Assembly: GCA_005799495.1 (NCBI GenBank)
Contig: SYGP01000021.1
Span: 1-50,054 of the forward strand
DNA: 50,054 nt
Source of the DNA: Planctomycetia bacterium
GTDB taxonomy: Bacteria > Planctomycetota > Phycisphaerae > Phycisphaerales > SM1A02
Direction: 5' to 3'
Below are positions 752 through 6,891 of the stretch, one piece after another. Position 1 is the first letter of the stretch; the number at the start of each line of letters is the position of its first letter. The translations under genes were made by a program, and so were the position numbers. The notes under the pieces were generated by a model, which saw only the letters and a program-made list of their open reading frames with translations, made no database searches and was not told the DNA's origin.

Positions 752-1999
752 TCAGAACGCGAACACCAGTTGAAGGTCAAAGACATATTGCCCCTGCTTG
801 TTCGGTTGACCTGTCGGCGGCGGGCCTGATTCGTCCGTGTAGCTGAACTGCGTCTTGACCGTCAGCGTTCGGTCGAGGCGCCACCCCACGCACGCATCGA
901 TGCGCCAGACGTCGTTGTCCCACGATTCACTGCTGCCGGGTGCATCGCCGTAGAGCTGCTGATTCCAACGCCCCGCCAACCACCACTGCGCATCGAAGCG
1001 CCAGCGCGTTTCCATGAAGTAGCTCACGACACCGACTGTTCCAGCCGGCGACAGCGGACCAGATCGCACGTTGAAGTTCGACCAGTGCGCCTCGCCCCAC
1101 AACTCGAGGTCGCCATGCGCCCAGGACACATCGACCCCAACATTGTTCTGCAGGTAATTCTGCCAGCCCTGAAACGAGTTCGGCACGACATACGAACCCG
1201 TGCTCCCGCTTGCGCCGATGTTCCATTCCGTGGTCGGGCGCCACCCGAGGCGACCCGTGTAGGTCAGCGCGCTCCCATCCAACGGGTTCTCCCACAGTTG
1301 CCAGTAAGGCACCGCAGAACTGAGCGCATCATTCTTGAACTCGAACGCCCAGTCGATGCGATCCATCGTCCCGTTGAACTGTCCACCACTGGTGTAGCTC
1401 GGTCCCCAGATGATCGGGAGCCATGTGCTGCGGTTCGCGGGCGCCGTCTTCGGCGTGATTCGCGCCGTATCGCCACGAATGCCCATGAACCACTCATAGG
1501 CAAGCGGGGCGTTCACCAGCGGATTCTGCCAACTGAAGTGGCGGTTCACCCATTGACCGTAGCTCGTCGGAATGGCGCCAAACTTGCCCTGCAGGATGCC
1601 GCCGAACGGACTGATCTTGGCGTAGTACACATCGGGTCGAATCTGGATGGACTCATCGGTCGGATCGAATCCGCGGTCGACATCGCCGAGTGCAAAGATG
1701 GAGAGCCACTCCTGCACCTGCAGCGTGCCGAGCATGCTGAGTCGCGGCGAATTGAGGTAGTTCTGCCCGGTCACCATGATGCCCGGCGGTGGTTGTGAGA
1801 TGACCCAGTTGTCGACCGTTGCGTAGAAGTCGAAATCAAGCGACACATCGCCCTTCTCGTTCTGGAAGGAAGTCATGTCACGAATCTGGTCGACCACATC
1901 GTCGAGCGGGTCTCCTGCACACGCAGCAGAGCACACGAGCCACGCGGCGCACGCGCGCAGCAGCGGGTACCCGAGTGCGGGACCGATCGCTGGGCTCAT
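752..1999 (-). CDS. Outer-membrane beta-barrel (porin-like) protein
   Basis: The 415-residue protein has a hydrophobic N-terminal signal region (residues about 10-29, ending near ACAG). The rest alternates polar and aromatic residues in strand-like stretches, for example WNIGASGSTGSYVV and ELWGEAHWSNFNV. It ends in Phe (VFDLQLVFAF), the usual recognition signal for the BAM barrel-insertion machinery. I recognise no specific porin family. The ATG overlaps the stop of the upstream cyclase gene by 4 bp (ATGA), so the two are translationally coupled. It is the last gene of the cupredoxin-cyclase-barrel unit. A role as the uptake or export channel for whatever that unit senses is inference. Confidence 0.7.
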   Translation of the reverse strand: MSPAIGPALGYPLLRACAAWLVCSAACAGDPLDDVVDQIRDMTSFQNEKGDVSLDFDFYATVDNWVISQPPPGIMVTGQNYLNSPRLSMLGTLQVQEWLSIFALGDVDRGFDPTDESIQIRPDVYYAKISPFGGILQGKFGAIPTSYGQWVNRHFSWQNPLVNAPLAYEWFMGIRGDTARITPKTAPANRSTWLPIIWGPSYTSGGQFNGTMDRIDWAFEFKNDALSSAVPYWQLWENPLDGSALTYTGRLGWRPTTEWNIGASGSTGSYVVPNSFQGWQNYLQNNVGVDVSWAHGDLELWGEAHWSNFNVRSGPLSPAGTVGVVSYFMETRWRFDAQWWLAGRWNQQLYGDAPGSSESWDNDVWRIDACVGWRLDRTLTVKTQFSYTDESGPPPTGQPNKQGQYVFDLQLVFAF

Positions 2000-3702
2000 C
2001 CGTGGCCTCGCGCCACTTGCAGCGCCTGCAGATCACCGATTGCCATCAACTCGAAAGCGCGGATCTGCTCTGAGAAACCCTTCGCCTCGAGCGGGGGCAA
2101 CTCCTGCACGGATGCTGACTCGATTCGATCCATCACGCCGGCATCAATGTAAACGGACATCGCCGGTGCCTTGGAACACAGGCGTGCGGCCAGATTGACG
2201 CGCGCGCCGAGCACCGTGTAATCGAGCCGCTGCGTGCTGCCCATGCAGCCTGCGACGACGGTGCCGAACGCGCAGCCAATCCCGATTCGGATCGGGCGCG
2301 CCGAGCCCTCATTCGCCGCCGCGCGCGCGCGCACCATCGCGAGAGCGCAGTGCGCCAGACGCTGCGCATCATCGGACGCACCCCTCGGCGCGCCGAACGT
2401 CACCATGATGAGGTCGCCGACAAACTTGTCGACCACACCGCCGTGGTCATAGGCAACCTTCGTCAGCAGCGTCATGTGCTCGTTCAGCATCGCGATGACC
2501 TGCGGCGGGTCCATGTGCTCCGTGAGCGATGTGAACCCCCGAATGTCGCAGAAGAGGACGCCGACATCCTTGCTGGTGCCGCCGAGATCGAGCTTGCCGG
2601 CAAGCAGTTCCTCGGCAACCTCCGGATCGGTGACCACATCGAGCACGCGTCGGTACTGGTCGCGCAGTGCCAGCCCTGCACCCATCTCGTTGAACCGCGT
2701 CGCGAGCTGGCCGAGTTCTCCGCGATCGCGCACGGGAACGCGCACCGTATAGTCGCCCTTTTCGATTGCACGCGCCGCACTGCTCATGTCCGCCACGGGA
2801 CGCGAGAGGCTCCGAGCAATCGCCGCCGCAATCACGAGACCTGCGCCAAGCGCGACGGCGCCCGCGATCAGCAGCCGAACCATCAGCGATTGCACGGCGC
2901 GCGATGTTCCCGCCAAGCTGGCCACAGCCACATACTGCGCGAGCGGCTTCTCGGCGATCGTCTGCGCATAGGCAATCATCGGCTCACCCGCCACGACACA
3001 CTCGATGTCCGAGCGACTTCCTGCTCCCCCCGCTGCAAGGAACGCCGACGCGACCGCGCTCCGCATGGAATCGGGCATGTCACCGCCGAACACCTGATCG
3101 CCGACCCGCAGCCCCACGCGGAGCACCGAATTGTCCGGCAGCTCGAGCGGCTTCGGCGCTGCGAAAGGAACACACAGCGCGAGAAAGCCAAGTTGCTCGT
3201 CGACACCGATGTCCACCACCGGCGCGACCACCGCTTCAGTGACCAGACCATTCACCGCGAGATAGAGCAACGCCGTCTTGTCACTTCCACGGACGAGCGG
3301 ACCAAGCGCATCCGCGATGGGTCGGGTCGCATCCTCTGCACCTCGTCGAAGCGCAATGACCCCACCCTCGAGATCAAGAAACACGAATGTGGATCCATTG
3401 CCGCCCGTTTGCAGCGCAAACCGCAGCTCATCTTCTGCCGTCTTCGCGACCACAGCGCCATCGCTCGAACCCATCGCCGCAACGACACGCGGTGAGCGTG
3501 CAAGGCGTTCCACCTCTTCTCGGACGGCGTCCACGCGGAGTCGCTGCGCAGACATCGCACCGTCGACCTGCGCGGCAAGCGTGTTCTCGAGTGCCATCAC
3601 ATAGGACGCGCGTGCTGCAGGTCCACCCACAAGTGCAGCAACGCTCAATGCAACGACCACGACAAGCGTGATCGCGAGGGAGAGCCTTGCCGAAAAGGTC
3701 AC
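1996..3702 (-). CDS. Membrane-bound class III adenylate/guanylate cyclase with extracytoplasmic sensor and HAMP domain
   Basis: The predicted product (568 aa) has a TM helix at about residues 8-28, a periplasmic sensor region of about 240 residues (30-270), a second TM at about 275-297, a HAMP segment (300-345) and a C-terminal class III cyclase domain (375-545). Catalytic residues are visible: metal-binding D386 (FCDIRGFTS) and D430 (KFVGD), K426 and T496 at the substrate-specifying positions, and N503 and R507 (VNLAARL) for the transition state. A Lys/Thr pair favours ATP, so a cAMP product is likely. I chose the GTG start at 3702 because it overlaps the cupredoxin stop (GTGA) and has GAGGG upstream; the open frame runs 59 codons further up. 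It is coupled to genes on both sides. Confidence 0.88.
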   Translation of the reverse strand: MTFSARLSLAITLVVVVALSVAALVGGPAARASYVMALENTLAAQVDGAMSAQRLRVDAVREEVERLARSPRVVAAMGSSDGAVVAKTAEDELRFALQTGGNGSTFVFLDLEGGVIALRRGAEDATRPIADALGPLVRGSDKTALLYLAVNGLVTEAVVAPVVDIGVDEQLGFLALCVPFAAPKPLELPDNSVLRVGLRVGDQVFGGDMPDSMRSAVASAFLAAGGAGSRSDIECVVAGEPMIAYAQTIAEKPLAQYVAVASLAGTSRAVQSLMVRLLIAGAVALGAGLVIAAAIARSLSRPVADMSSAARAIEKGDYTVRVPVRDRGELGQLATRFNEMGAGLALRDQYRRVLDVVTDPEVAEELLAGKLDLGGTSKDVGVLFCDIRGFTSLTEHMDPPQVIAMLNEHMTLLTKVAYDHGGVVDKFVGDLIMVTFGAPRGASDDAQRLAHCALAMVRARAAANEGSARPIRIGIGCAFGTVVAGCMGSTQRLDYTVLGARVNLAARLCSKAPAMSVYIDAGVMDRIESASVQELPPLEAKGFSEQIRAFELMAIGDLQALQVARGHG

Positions 3703-4487
3703 TTGCCCGGCGATCCCTCGGTGGATGACCAGTCCACTTCGAGGAACTGCCCCTCCTGCACTTCCACTTCCTTCTCGATCAGTTTGCGCCTCGGGCCGAC
3801 CCAAATGCGCACCGAGTGCTTTCCAGGTGCGATCCCCGCGATCTCGAACTTGCCCGCCGAATCGCTTCGCGCGAACCACGGCGTGTCCGCAACGATGATG
3901 TGCCCACGCATGTGGTCATGCACATCGCAGAACAGATCGACCACGCCGGGAGTCATGAACGCCTTCGCCTCGGGTTCTTCGCCCTTCACAAATCGGCCAA
4001 CATCGAACTTCTGGCTTTCCGAGAGGCTGAACACGCTGTGATAGTTCTCGTCGTTGTTGGGAAACGAAACGCGGGTTCCCGACTGGATCACCGTCACCTC
4101 GGGGCGGAACTGATACCCAGACTGGATGATCTTCTGCACGGGCACGCTGCTGCCATCGATGGGCGCGAAGCCCGAACCAATCCAGACAACGCTCATCGCC
4201 GCATCCGGCGCTTCCACCGTGATTGCGGGCTGCGCACCATACTCCTTCACCTGAGGTCGCTTGCGCGAAACAATCGGCAGCGTGCCGCGAATGGTCGCGC
4301 CGGACTTGGTCGCGGGGGTTTCCTGCGCGGGCGTTGCCTGCGCGGGCGTTGCTGGTGCCGGCGAAGTCTGCTCAGGCGCAGCGTGCCCCTGTGGTCGACC
4401 AGCAGCGGCTGCGCCACACAGCAGGGTGAAGAGGGCGATCCCCCGCGCAGACCTTCGCGTGAAGAATGGCTTCCACACCGAGCACAT
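3699..4487 (-). CDS. Secreted cupredoxin-domain (plastocyanin-like) protein
   Basis: The protein has 262 residues: an N-terminal signal or anchor (about 14-30), a Pro/Ala/Thr-rich linker (about 38-60), then a blue-copper-like domain. The type 1 copper ligands are apparent as H150 (NDENYHSVF), C187 and H190 (LFCDVHDHM) and M193. A carboxypeptidase-regulatory-like beta domain follows (ARSDSAGKFEIAGIAPGKHSV). Proteins of this type are often annotated as methylamine utilisation proteins, but no mau genes are nearby. It heads the coupled triad with the cyclase and barrel, so copper binding, electron transfer or copper presentation to the cyclase sensor is plausible but inferred. A TTG three codons upstream is an alternative start. 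Confidence 0.82.
   Translation of the reverse strand: MCSVWKPFFTRRSARGIALFTLLCGAAAAGRPQGHAAPEQTSPAPATPAQATPAQETPATKSGATIRGTLPIVSRKRPQVKEYGAQPAITVEAPDAAMSVVWIGSGFAPIDGSSVPVQKIIQSGYQFRPEVTVIQSGTRVSFPNNDENYHSVFSLSESQKFDVGRFVKGEEPEAKAFMTPGVVDLFCDVHDHMRGHIIVADTPWFARSDSAGKFEIAGIAPGKHSVRIWVGPRRKLIEKEVEVQEGQFLEVDWSSTEGSPGK
4323..4352. repeat. Tandem 15-bp repeat in the cupredoxin linker
   Basis: CTGCGCGGGCGTTGC occurs twice head to tail and encodes (minus strand) the ATPAQ repeats of the Pro/Ala/Thr-rich linker. Such in-frame repeats can change linker length by slippage. Confidence 0.8.
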
Positions 4488-4497
4488 GCAGTGCAAT

Positions 4498-5068: not shown

Positions 5069-5476
5069 TTACAGTCCCGCGGAGTCTCCACGGTTGAGCC
5101 ACCAGAACGCGCCGTTGAGAACCGAAGCGAACGACACCCACACGAAGGAGGGCAACAGCAGCAATGCGCTGCCGAAGGACACTCGCCAACAGAGCACGAT
5201 GGTCATGCCGAGCGCCGCCCACAAGAGCAGGATGTCCACAAACGCCCATCCAATGGCGTGCCGCGAAAAGAAGATCCATGGCCAAAGGAAGTTGAGCACC
5301 AAATGAAGCGCGAAGAGGATGATCGCCCAGCGTCCTCGTGACCAACCCGCGTCCTGCAGCAGCCGAAACGCGGCGATCGCGATCAGGATGTACAGCATCG
5401 TCCAGACTGGCCCGAAGACCCACGCGGGCGGGTTCCAAGAGGGCTTCACCAGTCCATCGAACCATGCGTCGGGCAT
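5069..5476 (-). CDS. tspO: TspO/MBR family protein (tryptophan-rich sensory protein)
   Basis: This 135-residue membrane protein carries the family hallmark KPSWNPPAWVFGPVW at its N-terminus, then five hydrophobic helices rich in Trp (FLWPWIFF, GAFWWLNRG). Bacterial TspO proteins bind porphyrins and other tetrapyrroles and have been linked to oxidative stress and outer-membrane export; the function here is not known. The ATG at 5476 shares its A with the mgtE stop (TGATG), indicating coupling. An in-frame ATG 15 bases upstream (5491) is an alternative that would overlap mgtE by 16 bp. Confidence 0.92.
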   Translation of the reverse strand: MPDAWFDGLVKPSWNPPAWVFGPVWTMLYILIAIAAFRLLQDAGWSRGRWAIILFALHLVLNFLWPWIFFSRHAIGWAFVDILLLWAALGMTIVLCWRVSFGSALLLLPSFVWVSFASVLNGAFWWLNRGDSAGL

Positions 5477-6891
5477 CACGGCATGATCCATGCGCTGAAG
5501 AGGCTGGCAAGACCGAGAAACACGAAGAAACTCATGCTGTCGGTCACCATCGTCAGGAAGATGGTGGACGCCGTGGCTGGGTCAAACCCAAGTCGCCGCA
5601 CGATGATCGGCATCGCGCTGCCCGTCGCGCAACCGATCATGAGCGTCACACTCATGCTTGCCGCGATCACGGCGCCAAGATGCCACGATGACCCCGTTGC
5701 CATTCGGATCGCGGCGACCGCACCACCCACGAGCAGTCCACAGAAGACGCCGTTCAGCAGCCCCGCCGTGAGCTCACGCCGAACATGTGTGAACGCCCTC
5801 CCGCTTGAAATCTCATCGAGCACGATGCCGCGCAGTGTGACGGCGAGTGACTGCTGCCCTGCGTTGCCCGACTGATTGGCGATGATCGGCATCAGCACGG
5901 CAAGCAGTGCGATCTCGGCGATCATCCCCTCGAACTGAAACACGACGATGGCGGCAACCGCGCTGGTGAACAGGTTGACGATGAGCCATGGAAAACGGCC
6001 TCGGAGCTTCTGGCGCACCGTGGAGTACACGCCTTCCTCCTTGCCAGCACCCACCATGCGCTGCGCGTCCTCGGTCCCCTCGGCTCGGATGATGTCGATC
6101 ACATCGTCCACCGTCACGATGCCGAGCAGACGCTGCGACGAGTCCACCACCGGCAGCTCGAGATAGTCGTATCGCTCGAACTCGCGCGCGACCAATTCAC
6201 GGTCCATCTCAGGGTGCACCGCATCCACACGGCGTTCACAGATGTCGCCGATTCGCTCGTGACTGCGCGAGACCAGCAGCCGCCGCAGACCGATCGTGCC
6301 CAGCAACCTCCCCTTTCGGTCCGTCACGAATGCCTGCTGCGCACTCTCCACGGGCTCGCCGCGGCGAATGTGCTCGATCGCCTCACTGACGGTCTCTTGC
6401 TCGCGCACCGAGAGGTACTGCGTGGTCATCATGCCACCCGCGCTCTCCTTCGGATAGATCATCAACTCGCGAATGCGAGATGCCGTTTCGGACCCCATCA
6501 GCGACAGCAGGCGATCGCGGTCTGGCTTGGGCATCGACTGCAACAGATCGGTCGCATCATCGGGCGCCATCTCCGCCAACACACGCCCCGCATAACTGGG
6601 GTCATCATCAATCAGATCCTCCAGAACGCTGACTGCCAGCGGCGTGACCATGTGACTCAGTGCATCCGCCGCAGCATCGACATCCATCTCGCTCACGACA
6701 TCGGATGCCTCGTCCTTCGGCAGCGTCTCCAGCGTGTCCGCTGCGTCCGCTGCTTCCTGCGCCTCCACTGCCTCGGCGATCTGCTCGGCTGGCGCGTCCG
6801 CACCGATCAGGTCATCGACGCGAACATCCTCCGCACTCTCCACGGTCGGATCGACGATGCCGTGGTCGCCTGGCTTCTCTTCGGGTGACAT
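5476..6891 (-). CDS. mgtE: MgtE family magnesium transporter
   Basis: The protein has 471 residues and the classic MgtE order. An acidic N-terminal superhelical domain comes first (about 30-150; MAPDDATDLLQSMP). A CBS pair follows (about 155-290; FVTDRKGRLLGTIGLRRLL, ELPVVDSSQRLLGIVTVDDV). The C-terminal membrane domain of five helices contains ANQSGNAGQQSLAV, corresponding to the conserved pore loop. Known family members form Mg2+ channels gated by cytosolic Mg2+ binding to the N and CBS domains. The ATG begins 2 bp after the stop of the phosphatase gene. A start further upstream exists but would overlap that gene. Confidence 0.95.
   Translation of the reverse strand: MSPEEKPGDHGIVDPTVESAEDVRVDDLIGADAPAEQIAEAVEAQEAADAADTLETLPKDEASDVVSEMDVDAAADALSHMVTPLAVSVLEDLIDDDPSYAGRVLAEMAPDDATDLLQSMPKPDRDRLLSLMGSETASRIRELMIYPKESAGGMMTTQYLSVREQETVSEAIEHIRRGEPVESAQQAFVTDRKGRLLGTIGLRRLLVSRSHERIGDICERRVDAVHPEMDRELVAREFERYDYLELPVVDSSQRLLGIVTVDDVIDIIRAEGTEDAQRMVGAGKEEGVYSTVRQKLRGRFPWLIVNLFTSAVAAIVVFQFEGMIAEIALLAVLMPIIANQSGNAGQQSLAVTLRGIVLDEISSGRAFTHVRRELTAGLLNGVFCGLLVGGAVAAIRMATGSSWHLGAVIAASMSVTLMIGCATGSAMPIIVRRLGFDPATASTIFLTMVTDSMSFFVFLGLASLFSAWIMP

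Follow-up and report, generated by a model that had tools for sequence, protein, structure and literature searches.

A conserved cupredoxin, sensor-cyclase and outer-membrane barrel gene unit in a planctomycete: a possible trans-envelope signalling cassette

Introduction

This work concerns a three-gene unit on the minus strand (positions 752 to 4487) of a 50,054-nucleotide stretch of DNA, hereafter the window, from the planctomycete assembly GCA_005799495.1; the window is one contig (SYGP01000021.1, here G000:C15) of that 2.36-Mb assembly, whose completeness is 97.8%. The unit encodes an exported cupredoxin, a membrane-bound nucleotidyl cyclase and an outer-membrane barrel, and the nearest functional model for it would be the YfiBNR system of Pseudomonas, in which an outer-membrane protein (YfiB), a small periplasmic protein (YfiR) and an inner-membrane cyclase (YfiN) are likewise encoded together. 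PMC4887326 describes how the outer-membrane protein sequesters the periplasmic inhibitor of the inner-membrane cyclase; YfiBNR is also the subject of PMC4655355, and the title of PMC4992967 names reductive stress. The cassette is nonetheless not a member of this system. Its small protein is a type 1 copper protein without a YfiR-type Pfam match, its barrel is a 415-residue protein with a predicted porin fold and its sensor is of the dCache type, while the diguanylate cyclase of YfiN is replaced by a class III cyclase (PF00211; the DgcN/YfiN model scores 15.3 against 325) and elsewhere by a histidine kinase, a GGDEF-EAL protein or a methyl-accepting chemotaxis protein (MCP).

Other described systems share single aspects of the unit. 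LuxP is a sugar-binding-type periplasmic partner of the LuxQ sensor kinase, and LuxPQ thus resembles the cassette in placing a periplasmic partner beside a two-lobed PAS/Cache-like sensor, with the periplasmic domain of LuxQ among the fold matches of the sensor studied here (Z 13.4); LuxP is not a cupredoxin, however, and LuxPQ has no barrel and a kinase output. The cupredoxin resembles amicyanin and copper nitrite reductase in its profile matches and shares with amicyanin a C-x2-H-x2-M type 1 site, but those proteins belong to methylamine or nitrite metabolism, whereas the one in the window has an additional regulatory-like domain and a sensor as its neighbour. The cyclase shares a catalytic domain, an ATP-type Lys and catalytic residues with class III adenylate cyclases of the CyaB/CyaC-like kind, and differs from them in its dCache sensor and in the cupredoxin and porin of the same operon. 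Over residues about 37-415 the predicted porin fold of the barrel resembles OprP/OprO, OmpC and DcaP porins, yet at E 1 the barrel sequence matches none of the solved porins, and its gene is tied to that of a cupredoxin.

An earlier interpretation made from the letters alone, hereafter the sequence-only reading, knew of no described pathway for such neighbourhoods, and the open-access literature that we searched (subscription journals lay mostly outside its scope) indeed yielded no description of the unit; passages of PMC8832773 treat an operon for an iron transporter that includes a cupredoxin and PleD, which differs from the cassette. The cupredoxin, cyclase and barrel genes are one conserved unit, and we propose, at a probability of about 0.45, that they form a trans-envelope cassette in which the barrel admits a solute, the state of the cupredoxin is read by the dCache sensor and the output is exchangeable. 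We infer that the porin-like barrel would admit copper, a copper complex or another redox-active small molecule to the periplasm; that copper would occupy the type 1 site of the exported cupredoxin, whose metal or redox state would alter its docking on the dCache domain; and that the inner-membrane sensor would relay this change via HAMP to the fused output, in the window a class III cyclase whose product is most likely cyclic AMP (cAMP). If this is true, cupredoxins, which to our knowledge are electron carriers, would take on a new role, with the copper protein supplying the input to a transmembrane sensor. It would also explain why genes annotated 'methylamine utilization protein' occur next to EAL-domain genes, and why related genes adjoin those of kinases, cyclases or chemoreceptors. 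The recurrence of the unit, or of close variants, in several bacterial phyla with differing internal outputs points to an undescribed form of extracellular copper or redox sensing. Swapped outputs make the idea directly testable, with one input module and four readouts.

Organization of the three-gene unit

The genes are transcribed in the order cupredoxin (4487-3699), cyclase (3702-1996) and barrel (1999-752), with the following features.

3699..4487, minus strand: exported cupredoxin of the 'methylamine utilization protein' type (open reading frame, Pfam, alignment, profiles)
4038..4040, minus strand: predicted type 1 copper ligand His150
3909..3929, minus strand: C-x2-H-x2-M segment with predicted ligands Cys187, His190 and Met193
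3699..3702, minus strand: GTGA stop/start overlap from cupredoxin to cyclase (sequence read)
1996..3702, minus strand: dCache-HAMP-class III nucleotidyl cyclase of 568 residues, a predicted adenylate cyclase (Pfam, model, alignment)
2917..3621, minus strand: extracytoplasmic dCache sensor, residues about 28-262 (structural model)
2677..2820, minus strand: HAMP domain, residues 295-342 (PF00672, E 5.7e-15, above cut-off)
2098..2574, minus strand: cyclase catalytic domain (Guanylate_cyc), residues 377-535 (PF00211, E 3.8e-25, 89 against 21.9 bits)
1996..1999, minus strand: ATGA stop/start overlap from cyclase to barrel (sequence read)
752..1999, minus strand: outer-membrane porin-like beta-barrel of 415 residues with a C-terminal Phe (open reading frame with ATG start, predicted model)

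The gene coordinates agree with the sequence-only reading that the three genes overlap at GTGA and ATGA. That reading had further derived a fixed stoichiometry from strict coupling, a claim we dropped because the overlaps, although kept in near relatives, are absent from some loci that keep the triad: in L077, L078, L080 and L083 the cupredoxin ends in TAG and is followed by a separate ATG, and a 16-nucleotide gap lies ahead of the barrel. At most, the overlaps suggest co-translation.

The cupredoxin starts at ATG 4487, from which its residues are numbered (an in-frame TTG also occurs at 4496), with a signal-peptide-like N-terminus and a Pro/Ala-rich linker, both judged by eye, and ends in a carboxypeptidase-regulatory-like domain, a weak Pfam match. 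As a single sequence it scores under the Pfam cupredoxin cut-off (20.5 against 27 bits) and it falls outside the amicyanin equivalog TIGR02657 (18 bits, cut-off 110.2); the family profile matches chains of copper nitrite reductase (best E 1.2e-7) and amicyanin (E 3e-4). The sequence contains the full set of four type 1 ligands claimed for it, invariant in 15 of 15 aligned homologues, and the His-Cys-His-Met set is retained in 54 of 54 linked cupredoxins (31 with a cyclase, 10 with a kinase, 7 with an EAL protein, 2 with an MCP and 4 in pairs). The nearest relatives come from metagenome-assembled genomes (MAGs) titled Phycisphaerae or Planctomycetota. The family is broad, with a member at 1e-15 in 166 of the 392 genomes of the window's phylum, and several of those we looked at adjoin respiratory or unrelated genes.

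The second gene, which begins at GTG, had been described as a membrane cyclase with a large extracytoplasmic sensor, and both the Pfam matches and the structural model agree with this. The region ahead of HAMP models as a long helix with two stacked Cache modules (mean predicted local distance difference test score, pLDDT, 85.9) and has fold matches at VIA Z 14.2 to DctB, 14.1 to PscC and 13.4 to the LuxQ periplasmic domain. dCache is a general ligand-binding fold, common also outside such cassettes, and we know of no ligand for the subfamily in the window. The window cyclase has no match to dCache_3 (PF14827) at E 0.1; that model is above its cut-off in L121, L036 and L039. In the catalytic domain, all 21 family members share D386, K426, D430, N503 and R507, and residue 494, in the sixth catalytic column, is Asp in 13 and Asn or Ser in 8; we take these six positions to be catalytic. 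On the residue roles so assumed, the Lys-Asp pair suggests ATP as the substrate, the product then being most likely cAMP.

The barrel has no Pfam match. Its identification as a barrel protein is borne out at the level of a predicted model, a porin fold with pLDDT 71, 81 residues under 50 and an unsettled strand count, which matches OprP (2o4v, Z 26.2), OmpK36 (Z 23.6) and DcaP (Z 23.4).

Distribution of the unit

Counts of adjacency show the triad recurring in two phyla, in 10 cyclase and 9 kinase versions, and searches of genomes, with the cupredoxin and with the barrel all exclude that it is unique to this genome. A full-length cyclase occurs in 9 of 61 genomes, the window's own included, and 8 of those 9 lie within the 19 genomes of its genus; at 1e-20, 17 genomes have cyclase matches, the other 8 aligning at the HAMP-cyclase end only. 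In all nine the three genes stand in the same order as far as contigs extend (the barrel is cut in G001, and in G016 the triad is split across two contigs). Scanning named genomes with an alignment of planctomycete cupredoxins gave 25 loci, some in genomes already in the 61-genome count, of which 23 are window-type and 2 Nitrospirota. The complete triad is present in 20 of the 23, two of which (L068 and L073) have a cupredoxin truncated at the contig start; of the remaining three, L071 has its barrel cut by the contig end, and L072 and L081 end earlier.

A census with the barrel as sole query, neighbours ignored, recovered it in the window's phylum from 9 of 392 genomes and in the phylum of Opitutales MAG G435, taken to be Verrucomicrobiota, from 16 of 288. 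This amounts to 26 loci in 25 genomes, a count that omits a 93-residue barrel fragment on G138 contig 2 and takes as one locus each the two adjacent barrel matches of G061 and the two rows of G554. A cupredoxin adjoins the barrel in 23 of the 26 loci, and in 19 a membrane signalling protein is encoded between them, with a cyclase output in 10 and a histidine kinase in 9. The loci of the window's phylum are 7 cyclase triads, 1 cupredoxin-barrel pair at a contig end (G138) and 1 without a cupredoxin (G186). In the second phylum the intervening protein is a cyclase at 3 loci (L180, L182, L196) and a histidine kinase at 9 (L181, L184, L186-L191, L194; the kinase domain was found by Pfam in 8 and recognised by eye in the translation of L190), L185, L192 and L193 are cupredoxin-barrel pairs, and L183 and L195 have a barrel without a cupredoxin. 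The proposal of cAMP as the signal probably holds for the predicted adenylate cyclase of the window and is too narrow for the cassettes as a group, 9 of the 19 barrel-linked ones having a histidine kinase output.

Several loci depart from the common arrangement. L185, L192, L193 and L120 have the cupredoxin directly beside the barrel with no sensor gene between, and the triad of G302 has a cyclase frame broken into two pieces. At L119:5776-8808 (G082) cyclase and barrel share a single 1010-residue open frame, possibly through a lost stop or a sequence error, since a fusion spanning two membranes seems odd; at L116:4997-7444 (G061) two adjacent barrel-family matches follow one cyclase.

Related cassettes with exchanged outputs

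Two more cupredoxin lineages adjoin sensors without a window-type barrel, an EAL type on Pseudomonadota plasmids and an MCP type in Nitrospirota. Pseudomonadota were sampled through plasmid records, not genomes, and their type of cupredoxin was found at E 1e-10 in 13 of 72,556 records. A sensor gene adjoins it in all 13, encoding an EAL-domain protein in 12 (9 annotated, 3 by search); in L153 (pSBC1_4) truncation has left only the Cache part of the sensor. Both plasmid sensors tested with Pfam contain dCache_3, HAMP, GGDEF and EAL. DUF3034 (PF11231) and a group 1 truncated hemoglobin, whose N-terminus is of export type in L037, the single sequence inspected by eye, adjoin the cupredoxin in 12 of the 13 records, that of Comamonas having neither. 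To judge from its N-terminus and C-terminal aromatic residue, DUF3034 may itself be an outer-membrane barrel; kinship with the window barrel was considered and rejected (profile-profile E 0.12). The cluster of DUF3034, truncated hemoglobin, cupredoxin and EAL sensor is seen at L037:4536-8839 and L153-L160, largely on Caballeronia plasmids. An earlier plasmid search gave 22 matches, 9 of them from Rhizobium or Sinorhizobium and, where listed, at 30 to 31% identity, none of which is counted here; in L040, one of those 9, neither a sensor nor a barrel was found beside the cupredoxin.

Querying with a Nitrospirota sensor retrieved 9 loci in 6 of 295 genomes. The cupredoxin is directly upstream of the sensor in 7 of the 9, including the query and one near-copy; in six of these the sensor resembles L084 in its MCP signalling half (confirmed with Pfam in two), and L205 matches the cyclase profile. 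The Nitrospirota stretches, mostly with short flanks, gave no barrel-family or DUF3034 match. Upstream in L197, L198 and L199 lies a gene with two CxxCH motifs, named cytochrome c peroxidase/MauG-like by eye, from L085. Such a gene, a cupredoxin, an MCP with a Cache-like sensor and an ankyrin-repeat protein make up the Nitrospirota cluster at L084:3080-4090 and L085:6599-11514.

Further combinations occur at single loci. In the planctomycete L121 the cyclase output stands behind a second kind of sensor, with 37% identity to the EAL-linked sensors (E 1e-26), and in L127 the cupredoxin is paired with a hybrid kinase, an unassigned 456-residue protein upstream being only weakly like the window barrel (probability 36, E 3.8e-4). 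At L054:5441-7703 (G030, of the window's family) a different cupredoxin overlaps a downstream Porin_O_P match (24.5 bits, cut-off 20.9), possibly a further cupredoxin-porin pair.

Sensor kinship and cupredoxin phylogeny

Of the 19 proteins encoded between cupredoxin and barrel, 16 match the cyclase-sensor profile A7, from which HAMP is excluded; among them are the nine kinase proteins, at E 1.9e-18 to 5.6e-29. Profile-profile comparison relates window-type sensors to the EAL-linked ones (probability 93, E 2.8e-7) and to the sensor of L127 (probability 88, E 2.8e-6), with decoy comparisons to cupredoxin or barrel at E 0.16 or worse.

The cupredoxin tree holds 78 rows, a non-random set whose 20 'other' rows are a convenience sample of best matches; it omits L079, L081, L059 (very long branch) and, as copies or poor rows, L040, L123, L153, L196, L197 and L198. 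A single branch sets the barrel-linked rows apart on a side of 42 rows (97/95), inside which the 9 barrel-linked kinase rows group together (99/95). The EAL group also contains two cyclase-linked rows (100/99), and the six MCP rows form one group (100/98). Output type needs at least 5 changes among the 54 sensor-linked rows. Rows with MAG titles such as Akkermansia, Verrucomicrobium, Verrucomicrobiales and Bacteroidia (L064, L066, L069, L080) cluster with rows whose titles name Planctomycetota; the former titles were not relied on.

A candidate receptor for the cyclic nucleotide

The window's genome has PF00211 matches in two places and a single match to PF00027, in a cyclic-nucleotide-gated (CNG)-like channel whose gene is followed by a bestrophin-like gene.

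G000:C13:72210-73520 (L136:1447-2760), minus strand: CNG-like potassium channel of 437 residues, with ion-channel domain, TIGYG filter and C-terminal cyclic-nucleotide-binding domain

Of the 8 same-genus genomes with the cyclase, 5 have a full-length orthologue of the channel, against 0 of 11 without the cyclase (one-sided Fisher about 0.005, by hand, among related genomes of varying completeness, with the frame of G009, one of the five, in two pieces). This is suggestive of a channel co-inherited as the receptor of the cyclase, and serves as a lead only. Since the channel is the sole cyclic-nucleotide-binding protein found, altered potassium conductance is a plausible, weakly inferred end point of the signalling, and if this is true, CNG-like channels gain a concrete upstream pathway. 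The full scheme, in which a blue-copper cassette occurs in at least four phyla with repeatedly exchanged outputs and here leads from copper protein to cAMP to a CNG-type potassium channel, is doubtful as a whole.

Assessment of the proposed mechanism

Taking the cupredoxin as the input is the simplest reading, because the copper site and the membrane sensor are constant while the output is exchangeable; the barrel is constant within one group. A number of observations weigh against it. Most dCache structures among the fold matches are themselves receptors for small ligands, and the input could thus be something other than the cupredoxin. The copper ligands are also kept in 23 of 24 cupredoxins outside the cassette; by sequence an intact copper site is a general trait of the family, and its conservation is thus evidence of a copper site, not of signalling, a role predicted here from sequences and models. 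Of the 26 barrel loci, 4 pair the cupredoxin with the barrel but contain no sensor and 3 have no cupredoxin, and the channel orthologue is missing in 3 of the 8 same-genus genomes with the cyclase. G433 and G434 (Nitrospirota) each hold 8 cupredoxin matches, which makes chance adjacency somewhat likelier there. The cassette linkage needs at least 3 changes on the cupredoxin tree, so that a single origin of the pairing is not established. As for the sensors, A7 has no match to the cyclase proteins of L116, L117 and L118, among the ten barrel-linked cyclase loci, and hardly detects EAL sensors (best E 0.083), whose homology to the window family is distant; profile-profile scores fall to probability 20 (E 1.2e-3) for MCP-linked sensors and 7.5 (E 4.7e-3) for that of L121. 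Common dCache ancestry is for this reason supported by sequence as far as the EAL type and not proven for each sensor type.

A serious rival, to which we give roughly a one-in-four standing among explanations, holds that cupredoxin and porin are a pair for uptake of copper or a copper complex, or for electron transfer, with the cupredoxin as cargo or chaperone and not as a signalling input, and that the sensor binds a separate small molecule in its dCache pocket and merely regulates them. The sensorless cupredoxin-barrel loci would be expected on such an account, as would the overlapping cupredoxin and Porin_O_P genes of L054, the likeness of the barrel to the substrate-specific porins OprP/OprO and the predominance of small-ligand receptors such as PctA, Mlp24, McpH and DctB among the fold matches. 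It accommodates less readily that the sensor stays with the cupredoxin where the window-type barrel is not seen, both in the 12 of 13 plasmid records with DUF3034 instead and in the Nitrospirota stretches, mostly with short flanks, in which no match to either family was seen.

It is improbable, and more so than uptake, that the cassette senses nitric oxide or peroxide instead of copper, the type 1 site being the reactive centre and the sensor responding to its oxidation or nitrosylation. The truncated hemoglobin beside or within the cassette in 12 of 13 plasmid records and the peroxidase/MauG-like gene upstream in L197, L198 and L199 would fit such a role, but neither gene is seen beside the Planctomycetota or Verrucomicrobiota cassettes, where only the hemoglobin was searched for. 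Operon hitch-hiking, that is, co-transcription without functional contact, would account for further same-strand genes upstream in the window (MgtE, TspO and GYF/DUF4190) and is made very unlikely by the distribution of the triad, whose order is kept across two phyla and many contexts whereas those upstream genes are matched in three same-genus loci only.

Neighbouring genes

Upstream of the cassette, Pfam identifies on the same strand MgtE, a TspO/MBR gene and a GYF/DUF4190 membrane protein. These were rejected as members of the unit, their matches being confined, among the loci scanned, to those of the same genus: MgtE and GYF in L061, L062 and L072, and TspO in L061. In the window the TspO/MBR gene (5069-5491, minus strand) sits between the MgtE and GYF/DUF4190 genes.

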